Shown here piece by piece: positions 1,485-35,481 of a stretch of 36,328 bases of DNA (position 1 is the first letter of the stretch; each line of letters opens with the position of its first letter). Origin of the DNA: a virus; the IMG/VR virus record IMGVR_UViG_3300042397_000239, positions 1 to 36,328 of that record. One strand, given 5' to 3'. Position numbers and translations under genes: made by a program. The notes beneath the pieces are model-generated. The model was not told where the DNA came from. It saw nothing but the letters and a program-made list of their open reading frames with translations, and ran no database searches.

Positions 1485-3557
1485 TCACCCTAATTGTGTG
1501 GAGGGTGGAACCACATTCGTACTGGGTCGCAATGCTTCCCCAATCTTTTCAGCAGTCTCAATAGCCGACTTGCGCTGGTCAATGTCGATGTTTGAGATAG
1601 TCTCTGCTGTCTTGGCCTTCGTTTCTTCCGATCGAGCCAAGGTGTATTCAGTGTTAGCCTGTGCTTGGATAGCTTGAGCCTGTGACTTAGCGGCTTCAGC
1701 AAGCAAGTAAGTGGTCTGTGCGTCTTGTTGCACGTTTGCTTGCGCTTCCATCATCTGCTGCTGTTCTTCTTCCGTTGGCTGCATAACGCCCATCTGGACT
1801 AGCTGCTTGCGGAAATATTCCTTGATGTCGCCAATGCCTTCGCCTTCCATGTTCATGATAGCCATAGCTTGCAGAACCTGTTGGGTTGTCGGATCGGTTG
1901 TGACTTGCATCATGCCTGTAAGCGCACGCACTGTTGCGTCACGGCGGCTCGATGACGATGGGCCAACGTCAACGGCAACGTCGAACAAAGCATCTCCTAG
2001 GTTGTTCTCGTAAATCAGTTCGCCTGTTTCTTCGTCGATCTGTGGCTTCATCAGTTCGATTGAACCAACTTCTTCCATAGCGCCGACGGTTTTCATCTTG
2101 CGCTTTTCTTCAACATAGATGTCTTTCGACATTGACAGCCATATCTCACCACAGCGCCGCACAGCCTTCGCCATGTTGCTCATGTAGATGAACGTCTGCA
2201 TATCCAAGCGGGTCTGGATAAGCTCAACAGCCTTGCCACTGATGCCACTGACCATCTTGTCGGCTTGCTGGTTGCTTCCCAGTATCTCAGCCATGTCTTG
2301 TTCAGTGATTTGAAGCAGTGCTGCCATCGCTGGTGGAATCGCTGCCGACTTGGTGTAAGCAACTGGGCCAGCGGCTTGAGTCTCGCCGTTTGGCCCTGTG
2401 ATTGGGTTGACCAACAGATAAGGATAGTTCCGAAGGTTGTCCTCTGCCCACATGACTTGATGGCCTGAGACTTGTTCAGGTAGCAGGATTGGCTTTTCAA
2501 TGGACGAAAGCGCACTGATTTCACCCAGCTTCGATAGCTGCATATTCTTCAGGCGCTGTGGGTCTTTGGCTAGGCGCACATGGCCCATGCAACGCTCGAC
2601 GTTATCGACGAACCAACGCTTGCCGTAAACAGGAACGATAGGGATGTTCTTGCCAGCGATGTAGCCCTGATCTTCAAGGATGCCGCCGCCGCTCATGATA
2701 TACTTGCGGACGCGCTTACGCTTCACGCGCTTCTGGCGTACCTCAACAGTGCCAACAGCGGCTAGTGTTTCTTCCAGCGTTTCGTCAGCGTCAAAGTCTG
2801 CTTGCGTGTAGCGTTCTTCTTCGCCTTGGATTGTCAGGAAGATGCGAACAGTCTCGCGGGTTTCTTCAACGCGGTAGTATTCAGCGACGAACACAACGTC
2901 AGGCGTATCCCAGTCGAACTCATACTGGTGAACTTCTTTAGGCCATGTAGTTGGGTCATCATTCCATTCAGCTTTGTAAGCGTCATAGGTCATGGAATAC
3001 AGAACGAAGCAATACTTTGCGTCGGCTTTGTCCTGGCGCTTTGCGTCAAGGTCGAAGAACACAGAGCTGTCAGCATCATAGATTGGTTCTATGCGGATGC
3101 GCTGGCGTTCGTCCTCGTCGTTTTCCTCATCTTCGTATGCCGTGCGTAAACGCCATGCGCCATAGCCACCGCCCACAGCTTCTTCAAAAGCGTTGTCGTA
3201 TGCTTCTTCTGCGCCGCTGTCCCGTTCGTCTGCACGATAAAGACCGTTGCAAGTCTCAGCTAGTTTTTCATCTGTGTCGCCATCTTTGCTCACAAAGTCC
3301 ACAGCGATGCGGTTGTTACGGTATTCGTTGATGATACGAATGACGCTCAGGTGAATCTTGTTTACCTCAAAGCGCGGTTTGTTTTCGTATTGCTCACCAA
3401 GTGGGCCTTCCCATTGCGCTCCAGCGATGGAGTAGAAGCGTCTATCCTGAAGGCACTGCAGGCGCTCATCACGAACTGAGGATTGAACACGATCGAACTC
3501 TGTCAACGCCTGTTGATGGATGTTCGTGAACCTTTGTTCTTTATTCAGTCGAGCCAT
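1485..3557 (-). CDS. Portal protein (P22 gp1-like)
   Basis: Dodecameric ring at the unique vertex through which DNA enters and leaves. At 690 residues it is near the 725 of P22 gp1. The N-terminal part has family-typical stretches (RFEVNKIHLSVIRIINEYRNNR near residue 65). The C-terminal third is Gln/Ala-rich and helical (about 590-670), matching the barrel helices of long podoviral portals. It starts immediately after the large terminase stop (TAAATG), so the two are probably translationally coupled. Neighbours: terminase before, scaffold after. Confidence 0.93.
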   Translation of the reverse strand: MARLNKEQRFTNIHQQALTEFDRVQSSVRDERLQCLQDRRFYSIAGAQWEGPLGEQYENKPRFEVNKIHLSVIRIINEYRNNRIAVDFVSKDGDTDEKLAETCNGLYRADERDSGAEEAYDNAFEEAVGGGYGAWRLRTAYEDEENDEDERQRIRIEPIYDADSSVFFDLDAKRQDKADAKYCFVLYSMTYDAYKAEWNDDPTTWPKEVHQYEFDWDTPDVVFVAEYYRVEETRETVRIFLTIQGEEERYTQADFDADETLEETLAAVGTVEVRQKRVKRKRVRKYIMSGGGILEDQGYIAGKNIPIVPVYGKRWFVDNVERCMGHVRLAKDPQRLKNMQLSKLGEISALSSIEKPILLPEQVSGHQVMWAEDNLRNYPYLLVNPITGPNGETQAAGPVAYTKSAAIPPAMAALLQITEQDMAEILGSNQQADKMVSGISGKAVELIQTRLDMQTFIYMSNMAKAVRRCGEIWLSMSKDIYVEEKRKMKTVGAMEEVGSIELMKPQIDEETGELIYENNLGDALFDVAVDVGPSSSSRRDATVRALTGMMQVTTDPTTQQVLQAMAIMNMEGEGIGDIKEYFRKQLVQMGVMQPTEEEQQQMMEAQANVQQDAQTTYLLAEAAKSQAQAIQAQANTEYTLARSEETKAKTAETISNIDIDQRKSAIETAEKIGEALRPSTNVVPPSTQLG

Positions 3558-9065: not shown

Positions 9066-9643
9066 CTGACTGTAAATTCCCCGTCAACCTTTCGAAGGTA
9101 TCCTCGTTCTTCAGCAATACGCAACCAACGCTCTGGCTTGTCAGATAGATCGACAGGCTCACCGCAGCGAAGCGACATAATAAATTCTTCGAACCTTGCC
9201 TCTGCGTTATTCAAACAGATGCGAAGCGCCTTGTCCTTTTTCGTCGTTCGTGGAGTGTAGCCTTCCAATATCTCTAAGCACTGGCGAGGCGTTGGGAACC
9301 AATCCAGCTCCTTGCAGACGCGCTCAGTCATGTAGCTAAGGGCTTCCTTCGTGTAGCCTCCAAGAATCCGCGCATAGACTGCTGTCCGCATTTGTCCTCT
9401 TTGCTCGTCGGTGTTCTTGCTTGGCAGGGTTGCCTCAATGAATTGCAATTGCTTGGCAAGCTCGTGTGTTTCGACTGGCACGTTCTCGATTGGCATCGCT
9501 AGGGCAAGTGACCTTAGCTCATCGCACTCTGATACTGTAAGCTCAGAACGGGTCATTAGGTCGTCCATCCGCGACATATCGAAGTGCTGCGGCAAAGCCG
9601 TTTTCGTTTCTAGGGTTACCAGTTGTCCGATTTGCTGCGCCAT
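9062..9643 (-). CDS. Probable helicase loader / replication P-like protein
   Basis: 193 residues encoded directly after the replication initiator, where lambda P-type helicase loaders lie. All-helical look, with WFPTPRQCLEILEGY near 115 as in phage proteins of this position and ERWLRIAEERGYLR near the end. The ATG at 9643 has a strong AGGGAAA site, so the gene really begins inside its upstream neighbour and overlaps it by 101 bases in another frame. Function rests on synteny. Confidence 0.6.
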   Translation of the reverse strand: MAQQIGQLVTLETKTALPQHFDMSRMDDLMTRSELTVSECDELRSLALAMPIENVPVETHELAKQLQFIEATLPSKNTDEQRGQMRTAVYARILGGYTKEALSYMTERVCKELDWFPTPRQCLEILEGYTPRTTKKDKALRICLNNAEARFEEFIMSLRCGEPVDLSDKPERWLRIAEERGYLRKVDGEFTVR

Positions 9644-10283
9644 TTTTCTTTCCCTCTACCCATGTTGCTTTAAAACCCTGCCATCCTCGTTCAATAGCTT
9701 CCGTGATAGCAGCCTCCAACGTCCATCCTGCCAACGCAGCTTCACGCTCAATGCCCTTCAATGCCGTTTCAGTGAAAGCTGCTTTCCGATGGTTCTTCCA
9801 ATCTTTCCAAAGCTGGTCACAAAATCCATCAGGTTTAGCAGCGGAAACGCTCCTGCGTTTTGCTGTTAATACGTTAGTATTAACTTCTGTATCTGTATCT
9901 GTATCTGTATCTTGGCCCGTTACTGAAACGTTTCTCTCCCGTTTCATAGCGTTATGCTGCTGTTTTTCCCTGTATTTTTTTACACGATTTGTGCTGTTAT
10001 CGCTTTTGTATTGCAGTTCATCCCAAGCAACTGGTGACAGGTTTTCATCCACCAAATTGACCTCTTGCAATCGCCTTCCAATCTCATCTAGTTCACGCAA
10101 CTGGACGCCTAACTTGACGGCAATTTTACGCGATCTGAGATTATCATTTGGCGTGTCTAGAAGGCCATCAGCCTTTAGGCAGCATAGAGCAACAAAGTGC
10201 CAGCGATCCTCAAAAGCTAACAGGCGCAGCTTTTCGTCATCAACTATTCGGTGATATAGTCGGAACCATTGTAAGCCACTCAT
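9543..10283 (-). CDS. Replication initiator, DnaD/DnaT/O-like with N-terminal winged helix
   Basis: 246 residues. The N-terminal ~100 (WFRLYHRIVDDEKLRLLAFEDRW...) have the winged-helix pattern of phage replisome organisers. A low-complexity linker follows (~115-145) with four Asp-Thr repeats encoded by (CTGTAT)x4. The C-terminal part includes LWKDWKNHRKAAFTETALKGIEREA, resembling helicase- or primosome-interacting domains of phage initiators. A 14-bp hairpin and a candidate RNA gene lie upstream. An origin may lie inside the linker, as in lambda O. Confidence 0.72.
   Translation of the reverse strand: MSGLQWFRLYHRIVDDEKLRLLAFEDRWHFVALCCLKADGLLDTPNDNLRSRKIAVKLGVQLRELDEIGRRLQEVNLVDENLSPVAWDELQYKSDNSTNRVKKYREKQQHNAMKRERNVSVTGQDTDTDTDTEVNTNVLTAKRRSVSAAKPDGFCDQLWKDWKNHRKAAFTETALKGIEREAALAGWTLEAAITEAIERGWQGFKATWVEGKKNGAANRTTGNPRNENGFAAALRYVADGRPNDPF
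9865..9910. other. Candidate replication origin: palindrome plus iteron-like hexamer repeats
   Basis: A perfect 8-bp inverted repeat (GTTAATAC at 9865-9872, GTATTAAC at 9877-9884, 4-base spacer) is followed two bases later by four perfect tandem copies of CTGTAT (9887-9910). They lie in the linker-coding part of the initiator gene. In lambdoid phages the origin, with iterons and AT-rich DNA, occupies the same part of gene O. The repeats could alternatively be a simple-sequence tract coding Asp-Thr. Confidence 0.45.
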
Positions 10284-10360
10284 GACGCAAACCCTTGCGC
10301 GATGGTTCTGTGGCGTGTATTACTCAACATAGCAGTGCCTTTCATAGCTAGGCGTTGTTA

Positions 10361-10402
10361 GAGCGGGTTGAGTGCCTTTCCTCTCTTGGGCACTCCCCGC
10401 TC
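10361..10402. other. Strong bulged hairpin upstream of the replication initiator gene
   Basis: GAGCGGG (10361-10367) pairs with CCCGCTC (10396-10402), and GAGTGCC (10370-10376) with GGCACTC (10389-10395). That makes 14 pairs interrupted by a 2-base bulge and closed by a 12-base loop that is pyrimidine-rich on the plus strand. No T-tract follows on either strand, so it is not an ordinary terminator. It could be a leader structure of the initiator mRNA or a single-strand initiation/origin element. Confidence 0.55.
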
Positions 10403-10454
10403 GCTCTTACATAACTCAAAACGCGCATTAGTAAAACATAATTTTTGCGACTGA

Positions 10455-10484
10455 TTGACCAGCCATAGGCTATCAGCGTATCTT
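10455..10484 (+). promoter_or_regulatory. Candidate promoter of the small RNA
   Basis: TTGACC (10455-10460) and TATCTT (10479-10484) are separated by 18 bases, five and four of six consensus bases. The expected transcript start is about 10490-10492. No rightward protein-coding gene follows; instead a terminator appears about 50 bases later. Confidence 0.5.
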
Positions 10485-10489
10485 GCGCG

Positions 10490-10541
10490 GATTGGTATCT
10501 CCTTACCGAACGAACTGGGTGGCTTCGGTCACCCTTTTTTT
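10490..10541 (+). ncRNA. Candidate ~50-nt small RNA with anti-Shine-Dalgarno seed
   Basis: From the predicted start the RNA would begin with a small hairpin (GGTA/TACC) exposing UCUCCU. After an unpaired linker it ends in a textbook terminator: GGGTGGC, a TTCG loop, GTCACCC, then seven T. Bases 10493-10504 are perfectly complementary to 11165-11176, the ribosome-binding site of erf. The same seed pairs with the ribosome-binding sites of the HTH gene at 12368 (GATTGG/TCTCCT, with two bulged bases) and of ssb (8 bases). Expression has not been shown; the call rests on promoter, terminator and complementarity. Confidence 0.5.
10517..10541 (+). terminator. Rho-independent terminator with UUCG tetraloop
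   Basis: 7-bp stem (one G-U pair) at 10517-10523 and 10528-10534 closed by TTCG, followed by seven T. It can act only on rightward transcription, yet no rightward gene precedes it for more than a kilobase. That is why an RNA gene is proposed. Confidence 0.85.
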
Positions 10542-10884
10542 ATTTGGTCTCACGAAGCTGGTGGTAAGGGAATAGCGCAATAAAGACAGCGCGGCGCAAG
10601 GGCCAGTCTCTGACAACGACTCCCTTCACATCTTCTGTGATTTGGATTCCGTTTTCGATGTATTCGAAGTCAGATTTGTAACCAACGCGTCGGCCATTAC
10701 CGTGCTTTAGCTGGCGACCGTTGATTACGAACCAGTATTGCGGGTGAATGATTAGGTCACTGATAGCGCCAGCCGCTTGCAGATCATGTAGCTCGTTGCA
10801 CCTAATAGCCTCTCGCTTGCTGTCATGAGTGTGACCAGACCTGCATTGCGATTTAACAGCGCGGTATTTGCCGAAGCGTTTCAT
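10540..10884 (-). CDS. DUF1064 protein (nuclease-like, recombination/Holliday junction candidate)
   Basis: 114 residues. The DUF1064 pattern is clear: KYRAVKSQCRSGHTHDSKREAIRCNEL at the N-terminus, GAISDLIIHPQYWFVINGR, then KSDFEYIENGIQITEDVKG. That gives the acidic/lysine cluster (D..E..EDVKG) of a PD-(D/E)XK-type nuclease fold. Phages often carry it next to replication genes. Coupled by an ATGA overlap to the upstream HTH gene. Confidence 0.8.
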   Translation of the reverse strand: MKRFGKYRAVKSQCRSGHTHDSKREAIRCNELHDLQAAGAISDLIIHPQYWFVINGRQLKHGNGRRVGYKSDFEYIENGIQITEDVKGVVVRDWPLRRAVFIALFPYHQLRETK

Positions 10885-11087: not shown

Positions 11088-11178
11088 ATTAAACTTTCTT
11101 TCGATTGTGGATAAAAAACGCTTTTAATCTTCTACGGATTAGTTACAAGGGGTTTGGCAAATAAAAGGAGATACCACA
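11088..11178. promoter_or_regulatory. Divergent early control region with a DnaA box
   Basis: The 91-bp gap between the HTH gene (left) and erf (right) must hold promoters for both. It contains TGTGGATAA at 11106-11114, the exact complement of the consensus DnaA box TTATCCACA. An overlapping 14-mer AAAAAACGCTTTTA (11113-11126) recurs at 14193-14206 upstream of the second rightward cluster. The AAGGAG site of erf ends the region. I could not assign confident -35/-10 boxes. Confidence 0.65.
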
Positions 11179-11739
11179 ATGCCAGTTCATAAAAAGATTA
11201 ACGAAGCGCGGATTGCCTTCCACGCATTACCTCTGAAAAAGTCCGGCCATAACACCTTTGCTGGATACAAATATTTCGAGCTTTCCGACTTTGTGATTCC
11301 AGCCCTTCGCATCTTTAACGATGTTGGGCTTTGCGCGATCATCAGCTTTTCGGAAACCACAGCATCGATGCACATCGTCGATGTCGAAGATGGTAGCCAA
11401 GTCATCATTCACAGCCCAATGGGTTCAGCCAATCTTAAAGGCTGTCACGAGATACAGAATATTGGCGCGTGTGAGACTTACTCAACCCGCTATCTCTGGA
11501 CAGCGGCCCTTTGCATTGTCGAGCATGACGCACTGGATGCCACCACAGGCAAGAGTGAGCCAGCGCCACGGGTTAAGTTTATCAGCGACGAACAGTTTGC
11601 TGAATTGCAAGCTTTGGTAGACCAGACCAAGACCGACTTGGCTTTGCTCTGCAAACATTACAAAATCAGCGCACTCAAGGAATTGCAGGAAACCCGCTTT
11701 GATGCGGTCAAGGCTGCATTAGAAAAGAAACTCGCATGA
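11179..11739 (+). CDS. erf: ERF-family single-strand annealing recombinase
   Basis: 186 residues. The ERF core is plain: INEARIAFHALPLKKSGHNTFAGYKYFELSDF (8-39), then ETYSTRYLWTAALCIVEHDALD (~98-120). It anneals complementary strands at recombining ends and can circularise the linear DNA after entry, as P22 Erf does. The C-terminal ~50 residues look like the small helical domain seen in other members. An AAGGAG site sits 8 bases from the ATG. It overlaps the exonuclease gene by four bases and starts the rightward operon. Confidence 0.92.
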   Translation: MPVHKKINEARIAFHALPLKKSGHNTFAGYKYFELSDFVIPALRIFNDVGLCAIISFSETTASMHIVDVEDGSQVIIHSPMGSANLKGCHEIQNIGACETYSTRYLWTAALCIVEHDALDATTGKSEPAPRVKFISDEQFAELQALVDQTKTDLALLCKHYKISALKELQETRFDAVKAALEKKLA

Positions 11740-12371
11740 CAGACGCAGCAATCATTCAACGCAGCCCTGAATGGTATGCAGCACGTTGTGGGAGCCTTGG
11801 TGCTTCCCAACTAGCAGACGCCCTAGCCAAGACAAAATCAGGCTGGGGAGCGTCACGCGCCAACCTTCGTGCAACCCTTGTGGTCGAACGGCTCACAGGC
11901 CAGCAGGAGGAAGGATTCATCCGCAGTGCAGCAATGCAGTGGGGAGTTGACAAGGAAGAAGAAGCCAGAATCGCCTACAGCTTCATGACAGGCCATGATG
12001 TGACTGAGGTTGGACTATATAAGCATCCTACCATTATAGGCACTCACGCCAGCCCTGACGGGCTTGTGGGTGATGATGGCTGCATTGAGATTAAGTGCCC
12101 TAATTCTGCCACGCATATAGAGGTGCTCAAAACTAATCAAATCGCGCACAAATATATACTCCAGATGCAATGGCAGATGGCTTGCGCTAATCGTCAATGG
12201 TGCGACTTCGTGAGCTTTGATCCACGGATGCCAGACCATCTAATGCTTTACATTGCACGGGTGCAGCGCGACAACGATATGCTGGCGACTTTGGAATCAG
12301 AAGTTACCGCATTTCTTGCAGAAGTTGATGAAGACGTAAAAGCGTTATCAAAACTAGGAGACCAATCATGA
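11736..12371 (+). CDS. YqaJ-type exonuclease (lambda Exo-like)
   Basis: 211 residues. RSPEWYAARCGSLGAS at the N-terminus, then HASPDGLVGDDGCIEIKCP near 104-122, supplying the D...ExK of the PD-(D/E)XK nuclease, and a helical region with YILQMQWQMACANRQWCDFVSFDP as in YqaJ/lambda Exo. It resects double-strand ends to give substrate for the Erf protein encoded just before it, a standard phage pair. ATGA overlaps on both sides. Confidence 0.9.
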   Translation: MTDAAIIQRSPEWYAARCGSLGASQLADALAKTKSGWGASRANLRATLVVERLTGQQEEGFIRSAAMQWGVDKEEEARIAYSFMTGHDVTEVGLYKHPTIIGTHASPDGLVGDDGCIEIKCPNSATHIEVLKTNQIAHKYILQMQWQMACANRQWCDFVSFDPRMPDHLMLYIARVQRDNDMLATLESEVTAFLAEVDEDVKALSKLGDQS

Positions 12372-13285: not shown

Positions 13286-13515
13286 GTGATAATACAGACG
13301 ATATGCTGCGCCTTTTGATTGAGCGCATCGAACGCCAAGAAGAAGAAAAGAAGGTTGTGGCGGATAGCATTAAGGAAATTTACAGCGAGGCAAAATCTCA
13401 CGGTTACGATGTTAAAATCCTTCGCGCTGTGATTCGCCTTCGCAAGATGGAAAAACACGAACGAGCAGAATACGAAGTCCTGCTTGAAACATACATGAAC
13501 GCACTAGGCGGTTAA
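13282..13515 (+). CDS. GapR-like (DUF2312) DNA-binding protein
   Basis: 77 residues: [44 protein letters not shown], a long helix pair with the DUF2312 signature, and a C-terminal [15 protein letters not shown]. GapR in Caulobacter is a nucleoid protein that senses overtwisted DNA. The family is almost confined to Alphaproteobacteria and their phages, so this is the best host clue in the window. Starts by ATGA overlap with ninB. Confidence 0.92.
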
Positions 13516-13526
13516 GGAGAGAGAGA

Positions 13527-35138: not shown

Positions 35139-35311
35139 TTCTTTTTGCCTTTCACTGGCTTTGCAGTCTTTGCTGATGCGATGAAGTCAGCCTTTGTTGG
35201 CGCACCTTTGCTGCCGACCTTCTTCATGCGCTCTGGTGTCTTGCCAGCAGCCTTCTGCGCCTTGATGCGCTTACGCTTCGCATTGATGTTAGCGTATAAG
35301 CCCATCTTCAT
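35135..35311 (-). CDS. 58-residue Lys-rich protein
   Basis: MKMGLYANINAKRKRIKAQK..., about one third Lys/Arg, ends KPVKGKKK. Short basic proteins of this kind are common right after the major capsid gene of P22-like and related phages. Starts at an ATGA overlap with the gene before and ends in a GTGA overlap with the next. Confidence 0.7.
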   Translation of the reverse strand: MKMGLYANINAKRKRIKAQKAAGKTPERMKKVGSKGAPTKADFIASAKTAKPVKGKKK

Positions 35312-35481
35312 TTCTTTGCCTTCCGCTTAGGAGCCTTCGATGGCTTCCCTGCTTTCATTGCTGCATCGCGTGCAACGTTCAGCGCAATAGCGATGGCTTG
35401 CTTTTTAGGGCGACCAGACTTTTCTTCCATCTTGATGTTCTTGCCGATGGTTGCGCGGCTGTAACCTTTTTTCAATGGCAT
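35308..35481 (-). CDS. 57-residue Lys-rich protein (DUF6496-like)
   Basis: MPLKKGYSRATIGKNIKMEEKSGRPKKQAIAIALNVARDA and a basic tail KAPKRKAKK. The KSGRPKKQAIAIAL pattern recurs in small phage proteins beside structural genes. AGGGAG precedes the ATG. First gene after the coat gene and its hairpin. Confidence 0.7.
   Translation of the reverse strand: MPLKKGYSRATIGKNIKMEEKSGRPKKQAIAIALNVARDAAMKAGKPSKAPKRKAKK

Follow-up and report, generated by a model that had tools for sequence, protein, structure and literature searches.

A predicted small RNA gene of P22-like phages with an anti-Shine-Dalgarno motif displayed in a hairpin loop

To our knowledge, few small RNAs have been described from uncultivated phages, and the functions of phage RNAs come mainly from temperate enterobacterial phages and their relatives. 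The sar RNA of P22 blocks translation initiation. The oop RNA of lambda adjoins the replication genes, and its terminator overlaps the 3' end of the neighbouring gene. Both are short and are gene-specific antisense RNAs, oop being cis-encoded (PMC12197685). The c4 RNA of phages P1 and P7 is a further phage antisense RNA, whose loops act at the ribosome-binding site of the phage's own antirepressor (ant) mRNA through gene-specific complementarity (PMC12197685). DicF, PreS, and VpdS, of ~50-90 nt, derive from enterobacterial and Vibrio prophages or temperate phages and work in trans, either on messages of the host or on its sRNA network (PMC12197685).

Other trans-acting RNAs are chromosomal. 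AbcR1 and AbcR2 (alpha-r15) of Sinorhizobium meliloti, described with NfeR1, are 114-121 nt long, have metabolic targets, and carry two anti-Shine-Dalgarno (aSD) motifs; CUCC motifs in their loops are proven repressors of Shine-Dalgarno (SD) sites (PMC8844928). The alphaR8 RNAs of Alphaproteobacteria (SisA-D, MmgR) are Hfq-linked and share a conserved 10-mer with an anti-SD signature that addresses many messages (PMC12559287).

The locus described here lies in a 36,328-nt stretch of viral DNA (IMG/VR record IMGVR_UViG_3300042397_000239; the window). A first-pass annotation of the window had proposed a trans-acting RNA that represses the phage's own recombination operon. The independent sRNA gene and its anti-SD 5' domain were borne out by comparison with relatives; the operon as a dedicated target was not.

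The locus and its neighbourhood

The window is a P22-like podovirus, with portal (phrog_156), terminase, scaffold, coat, and tailspike genes in one record. The sRNA cassette is flanked on one side by the leftward replication initiator (9543-10283) and on the other by a DUF1064-type, Holliday-junction-resolvase-like gene (10540-10884, minus strand), whose stop codon overlaps the terminator U-run. To the right of the latter are a leftward HTH gene and then a rightward recombination operon with the order erf, recE-like exonuclease, small HTH-like gene, HNH, NinB, and ssb. The heading gene, erf (11179-11739, plus strand), encodes an Erf-like single-strand annealing protein (phrog_155, E 1.4e-21).

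The cassette is read on the plus strand. Its putative promoter has a -35 box TTGACC (10455-10460), an 18-nt spacer, and a -10 box TATCTT (10479-10484), and its intrinsic terminator (10517-10541) consists of GGGTGGC-TTCG-GTCACCC (10517-10534) followed by seven T (10535-10541). The predicted small RNA is ~51 nt long (10490-10541), with the 5' end at 10490-10492 taken from the -10 box and the 3' end from the U-run. The RNA begins with the hairpin UUGGUA-UCUCCU-UACCGA (10492-10509), where the loop shows anti-SD bases with a predicted unpaired probability of 1.0. Promoter and UUCG-loop terminator are present where the first-pass annotation had placed them, and its claim that no rightward gene lies between them also stands. 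The sole open reading frame there is a TTG-started 42-aa frame that overlaps the promoter and is broken in relatives by 1-nt loop indels. A consensus scan alone gave 4 promoter-like sites vs 6.4 expected and 7 terminators vs 5.8 expected; promoter and terminator are thus not beyond chance by consensus, and the case rests on the comparison with relatives.

Divergent from the sRNA is the leader of the replication initiator (10281-10413, minus strand), with a promoter-like -10, a GC-rich hairpin, and a short leader ORF. The leftward promoter is conserved, with a -35-like TTTAC(A/T) (TTTACT at 10430-10435 in the window) and a -10 at 10408-10413 (minus strand). It stands back to back with the sRNA promoter, and an AT-rich 'UP' tract is common to both. 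The GC-rich hairpin is conserved within 10345-10435 (minus strand), as is the leader ORF at 10280-10330 (minus strand), which reads MLSNTRHRTIAQGFAS in the window, MSNTRHRTIAQDIAS in most relatives, and MNIITRHKTLVQGG in relative L184. In many relatives its SD is AAGGAGGCA. In the window, the stop codon of the leader ORF and the start codon of the initiator overlap (ATGA), which suggests translational coupling by analogy with plasmid rep leaders.

At window positions 9884-10268, the replication initiator gene has 80.7% DNA identity (two pieces) to the initiator gene of Acinetobacter phage vB_AbaS_Silvergun, whose genome is otherwise unrelated to the window; this points to a recent gene exchange and may hint at a host. 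In part of the clade (window 10462-10484; L004, L018, and L036), the palindrome ATACGC-TATCA/TGATA-GCGTAT overlaps the sRNA promoter -10 and is a possible operator.

Conservation of the cassette and its loop

The cassette is found in ~70 related IMG/VR contigs, with 45 distinct transcript sequences. The neighbouring DUF1064-type protein, a query independent of the RNA, gave 70 viral loci, and in all but one the cassette follows this gene on the opposite strand, either directly or behind an inserted HNH gene. The sRNA pattern and an alternative-terminator pattern added further contigs. The consensus unit is composed of TTGAC, 17-18 nt, a TATNNT-like -10, TTGGT(A/G/T)-(0-2 nt)-CTCCT-TACC(R/A)A, a linker, a terminator hairpin, and a U-run. 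Conservation in ~70 relatives lifts this unit above chance.

Within the unit, TTGAC is present in 57-58 of 58 distinct upstream sequences and is near-invariant, whereas the promoter spacer has only 57% mean identity; the -10 reads TATCTT, TATTCT, TATTAT, TATTTT, and similar. Changes fall in the promoter spacer (mean majority 57%) and the linker (65%) and spare CTCCT together with the GG...C bases of the stem around it, in a comparison whose search pattern included the sRNA core. Among the sRNA-bearing DUF1064 loci, which were gathered independently via the neighbouring protein, CTCCT has no exception. The 5' hairpin helix is paired in 95.6% of cells (28 distinct sequences). As there is little variation in the stem, the clade shows only weak covariation, with 1 pair changed on both sides.

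Loop length differs among relatives by 1-nt steps. Since these indels are single bases, the segment is non-coding, and a leader peptide or other coding function is ruled out. In ~10 records unrelated stems (GGGCAGTG.../GGGTGGTG... forms) take the place of the terminator stem and the U-run stays, which marks the plus strand as the functional one. Mimicry of 16S rRNA beyond the anti-SD was also considered. The 16S tail is GCGGCUGGAUCACCUCCUU; the window type resembles it (GCGGAUUGG-UACCUCCUU) and the type found in L184 does not, so the anti-SD alone is common to both and the wider mimicry was rejected.

Presence and absence point to a unit that is conserved independently of its neighbours. In L052, L081, and L089, an HNH gene stands between the sRNA and the resolvase-like gene, and the RNA is unaffected. 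Eleven relatives lack the sRNA. At the homologous junctions (L246, L285, L293, L308, and L044), the missing segment coincides exactly with the stretch that begins with the -35 box and ends with the U-run, and it lies between ..ATCA and the 3' end of the neighbour. A tree built on the neighbouring gene places phages without the unit both among carriers and at the base, and requires at least five changes, counting the L184-type variant. With its own promoter and intrinsic terminator and no coding frame, the cassette has the features of a trans-acting small regulatory RNA, and on this comparative evidence it is a discrete, independent gene for a predicted phage small RNA.

Two further observations concern insertions and terminators in the clade. 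HNH endonuclease genes have been inserted repeatedly in the stretch that separates the DUF1064-type gene from the replication leader/sRNA locus (L052, L081, L089, and L308). A longer replacement terminator hairpin with the element GTTTGGATTGGGCTTTCTCGGTCG occurs in L003, L010, L013, L029, L031, L056, L058, and L068; the element is tandemly doubled in L003 and L068.

A second version is found in a deeper lineage. In L184, whose erf is 69% identical, a promoter-like TTGCCA-17-TATAAT at the syntenic place is followed by the hairpin UGCGCG-UUUCCUCCUCCUCU-CGCGCA and a terminator; the counterpart in L338/L339 has TTGCCT-17-TATAAT, the hairpin UGCGCG-UUUUCCUCUCCUUC-CGCGCA, and a terminator. Stem and terminator have nothing in common with the window type, and the loop is again CUCC-rich and anti-SD. 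Shuffled sequence (608 million bases) contained this combination of promoter, CCTCC/CTCCT hairpin, and terminator 69 times (~1 per 9 Mb of strand), and 0.83 Mb (both strands) of other erf-relative loci contained it 0 times; because it is so rare, its syntenic occurrence is not chance. The exposed CUCC-type motif is invariant in the clade and recurs on another stem in L184 and L338, and this version is the strongest evidence, by sequence comparison, that selection acts to retain an anti-SD shown in a loop. The different-stem versions are convergent or deeply diverged.

A pattern search for L184-type stems found nothing beyond chance matches except L184 and L338/L339, and a covariance model (R1) run on distant erf relatives found nothing convincing, its hit in L219 scoring 20 bits with no hairpin context. 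In L315, the 3' flank of the DUF1064 gene (~3340-3440) has a hairpin ACGCAC-TGCCTCTTG-GTGCGT at the syntenic place. Its loop CCUCUU is the exact complement of the L315 erf SD, AAGAGG; this locus is without a U-run terminator, and its promoter is weak.

No Rfam covariance model matched the RNA at gathering score; weak hits fell far below the cut-off, e.g., PhrS at 13.7 vs 37 bits. That no such RNA is known from P22-like phages, as the first-pass annotation put it, agrees with this, and the openly available literature searched gave no phage RNA of the kind. In 84,980 species genomes, the sRNA pattern had 0 matches and erf alignment found no relative. Sequenced phage isolates and bacterial genomes gave no relative close enough to name a host.

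Predicted partners and rival explanations

Bases 10493-10504 of the RNA (TGGTATCTCCTT) are a perfect 12-nt complement of the erf ribosome-binding site at 11165-11176 (AAGGAGATACCA, plus strand), as first reported. The other two matches are likewise as described, bulged at 12356-12367 and 8 bp long at 13513-13520. The extension of the pairing past the SD core had been taken to make chance less likely. CUCCUU/AAGGAG is indeed constant, but the complement is in part a matter of chance: the SD core makes up half of the 12 nt, and the rest is not kept in relatives. The GGUA portion of the 'seed' is accounted for by a stem within the sRNA itself, GGUA/UACC. Among members of the clade, the 5' segment of the RNA is GGTATCTCC, GGTACTCC, GGTACCTCC, GGTGCTCC, GGTTCCTCC, or GGTATTCTCC, and most erf leaders stay GGAGATACC. 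With sRNA variants TATCTCC, TACTCC, TACCTCC, TTCCTCC, TGCTCC, or TATTCTCC, the GGUA(U)/(A)UACC extension, which the sRNA stem half explains, is not maintained, and the conserved core pairing is 6-7 bp. With a dedicated erf antisense RNA, seed and erf leader would change together in related phages, and they do not: AAGGAG/CUCCUU alone is constant and the flanks drift.

By predicted pairing, the best phage partners are three candidates: erf, which reaches the top five in 13 of 16 records; ssb, which ranks high in several; and the 57-aa gene at 35308, with rank ~2 in 7 of 9. These genes rank best largely because few genes of these phages have AAGGAG, which is found in 2-13% of called genes in the clade. 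Dedicated phage targets other than erf (the 57-aa gene or ssb) were rejected, as no family has a consistent native-over-foreign preference. No depletion of GGAG was seen in the sRNA-bearing phages (0.18-0.40 vs 0.24-0.35, no clear difference with vs without the RNA). The 57-aa gene (35308-35481, minus strand) lies behind the coat gene, and its leader (TTTAAGGAGCGAACCAATG in relatives) resembles the sRNA reverse complement over the SD and ACCAAT.

The observations are a conserved, non-coding cassette, an invariant loop that recurs on another stem, and complementarity to SD sites. The reading that is probably correct is a minimal trans-acting anti-SD sRNA, encoded by an independent phage gene, that blocks messages with strong AAGGAG sites. 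A sigma-70-type promoter would drive a ~51-nt transcript ending at its own terminator, and the 5' hairpin would present CUCCU(U) in its loop. In the cell, this loop may pair in trans with AAGGAG-type ribosome-binding sites and so block ribosome loading and initiation. The selected element is a bare anti-SD loop and not an extended, gene-specific seed, so the RNA most likely acts on a set of messages. These may belong to the host and, in small number, to the phage, where erf, ssb, and the 57-aa gene (35308) are the best candidates. A broader version, in which the RNA is a ~51-nt decoy of the 16S anti-SD tail that occupies host AAGGAG sites generally and spares most of the phage's own genes, in which AAGGAG is rare, is possible but doubtful.

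A specific repressor of the phage's own erf mRNA, and thereby of the recombination operon, is unlikely. The 12-nt complement and the high rank of erf favour it, and the L338 loop, CUCCUUC, can pair over 7 bp with GAAGGAG at the erf site of that phage. The flanks show no co-change, however, and a swap test at erf leaders was flat, with a mean difference of +0.1 kcal/mol between own and foreign sRNAs and 51% of foreign RNAs at least as good; erf and its operon were therefore set aside as the dedicated target. In L001 and L002, the target has GACACC vs GGTATC in the sRNA. The SD itself leaves a faint hint for erf: AAGGAG is kept at erf in every sRNA-bearing locus compared and is AGGGAG in the sRNA-lacking L285, L293, and L308, which is probably one event, whereas the sRNA-lacking L246 and L044 retain AAGGAG, so that the correlation may be a single lineage event. 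One plausible target is still erf, and host messages are at least as likely. A sponge is improbable: here the CUCC loop would pair with GGAG-bearing host sRNAs, or the RNA would titrate Hfq, freeing host or phage messages. The phage-encoded sponges AgvB and AsxR (PMC12197685) and the anti-anti-SD sponge CrfA of Caulobacter (PMC12559287) are precedents, and the terminal U-run is compatible with Hfq; against this, the loop polarity is that of a direct SD binder.

The remaining alternatives make use of the position of the cassette. An RNA like lambda oop, acting in cis on the leftward mRNA of the neighbouring gene, would fit the transcription against leftward genes, the terminator that overlaps the DUF1064-type stop codon, and the adjoining replication genes. 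It is very improbable: cis-antisense action would not constrain the sequence, yet the loop does not vary, the HNH gene replaces the neighbour in L052, L081, and L089 with the RNA unchanged, and the replication leader begins beyond the promoter, so the transcripts do not overlap. A promoter-terminator gate like lambda pR'/6S, with the short RNA as a by-product and antitermination running into the erf operon, has only a slender chance, since a gated RNA would have no use for an anti-SD loop kept unchanged on two different stems, and read-through would be antisense to two phage genes. This holds even though the terminator directly follows the promoter, the erf operon lies ~640 nt downstream on the same strand, and no strong erf promoter stood out in the consensus scan. 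That the opposite strand is the active one can nearly be dismissed. In a leftward transcript, GGUA-AGGAGA-UACC would be a CsrA-type GGA hairpin or a relic ribosome-binding site, with AGGA in the loop of the reverse complement, but the plus-strand promoter and U-run are conserved alongside it, the U-run stays when the terminator stem changes, and no start codon follows the minus-strand AAGGAG.

The favoured reading, an anti-SD sRNA acting in trans, gives a simple and testable model in which ~50 bases of RNA could set the translation of many messages. The sRNA is defined by comparative genomics alone, which names the selected feature, the loop-displayed anti-SD. It would be a new Rfam-type family.

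Comparison with described systems

The first-pass annotation had placed the RNA like lambda oop. It does stand back to back with the replication operon, and the likeness is one of position only, as its sequence is kept when the neighbouring gene changes. It is not cis-antisense to a fixed neighbour, the neighbour having changed in L052, L081, and L089. The window RNA is short, like sar and OOP; unlike these gene-specific antisense RNAs, it keeps a loop of 5-6 nt only (PMC12197685). Like c4, it is a phage RNA with a loop proposed to act at ribosome-binding sites of phage mRNA, but it has its own promoter and terminator, and the SD core alone is kept (PMC12197685). DicF, PreS, and VpdS resemble it in size, phage origin, and proposed action in trans, and differ in sequence, locus, and seed (PMC12197685).

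In its anti-SD signature and proposed action on many messages, the RNA resembles alphaR8, which, in contrast, is not phage-borne (PMC12559287). It is proposed to act in trans, as AbcR1/2 and NfeR1 do, and differs from AbcR1/2 in its length of ~51 nt and its single aSD loop (PMC8844928). No sequence family relation to AbcR1/2 was found in Rfam; by analogy, the phage RNA is proposed to work like their loop aSD1.
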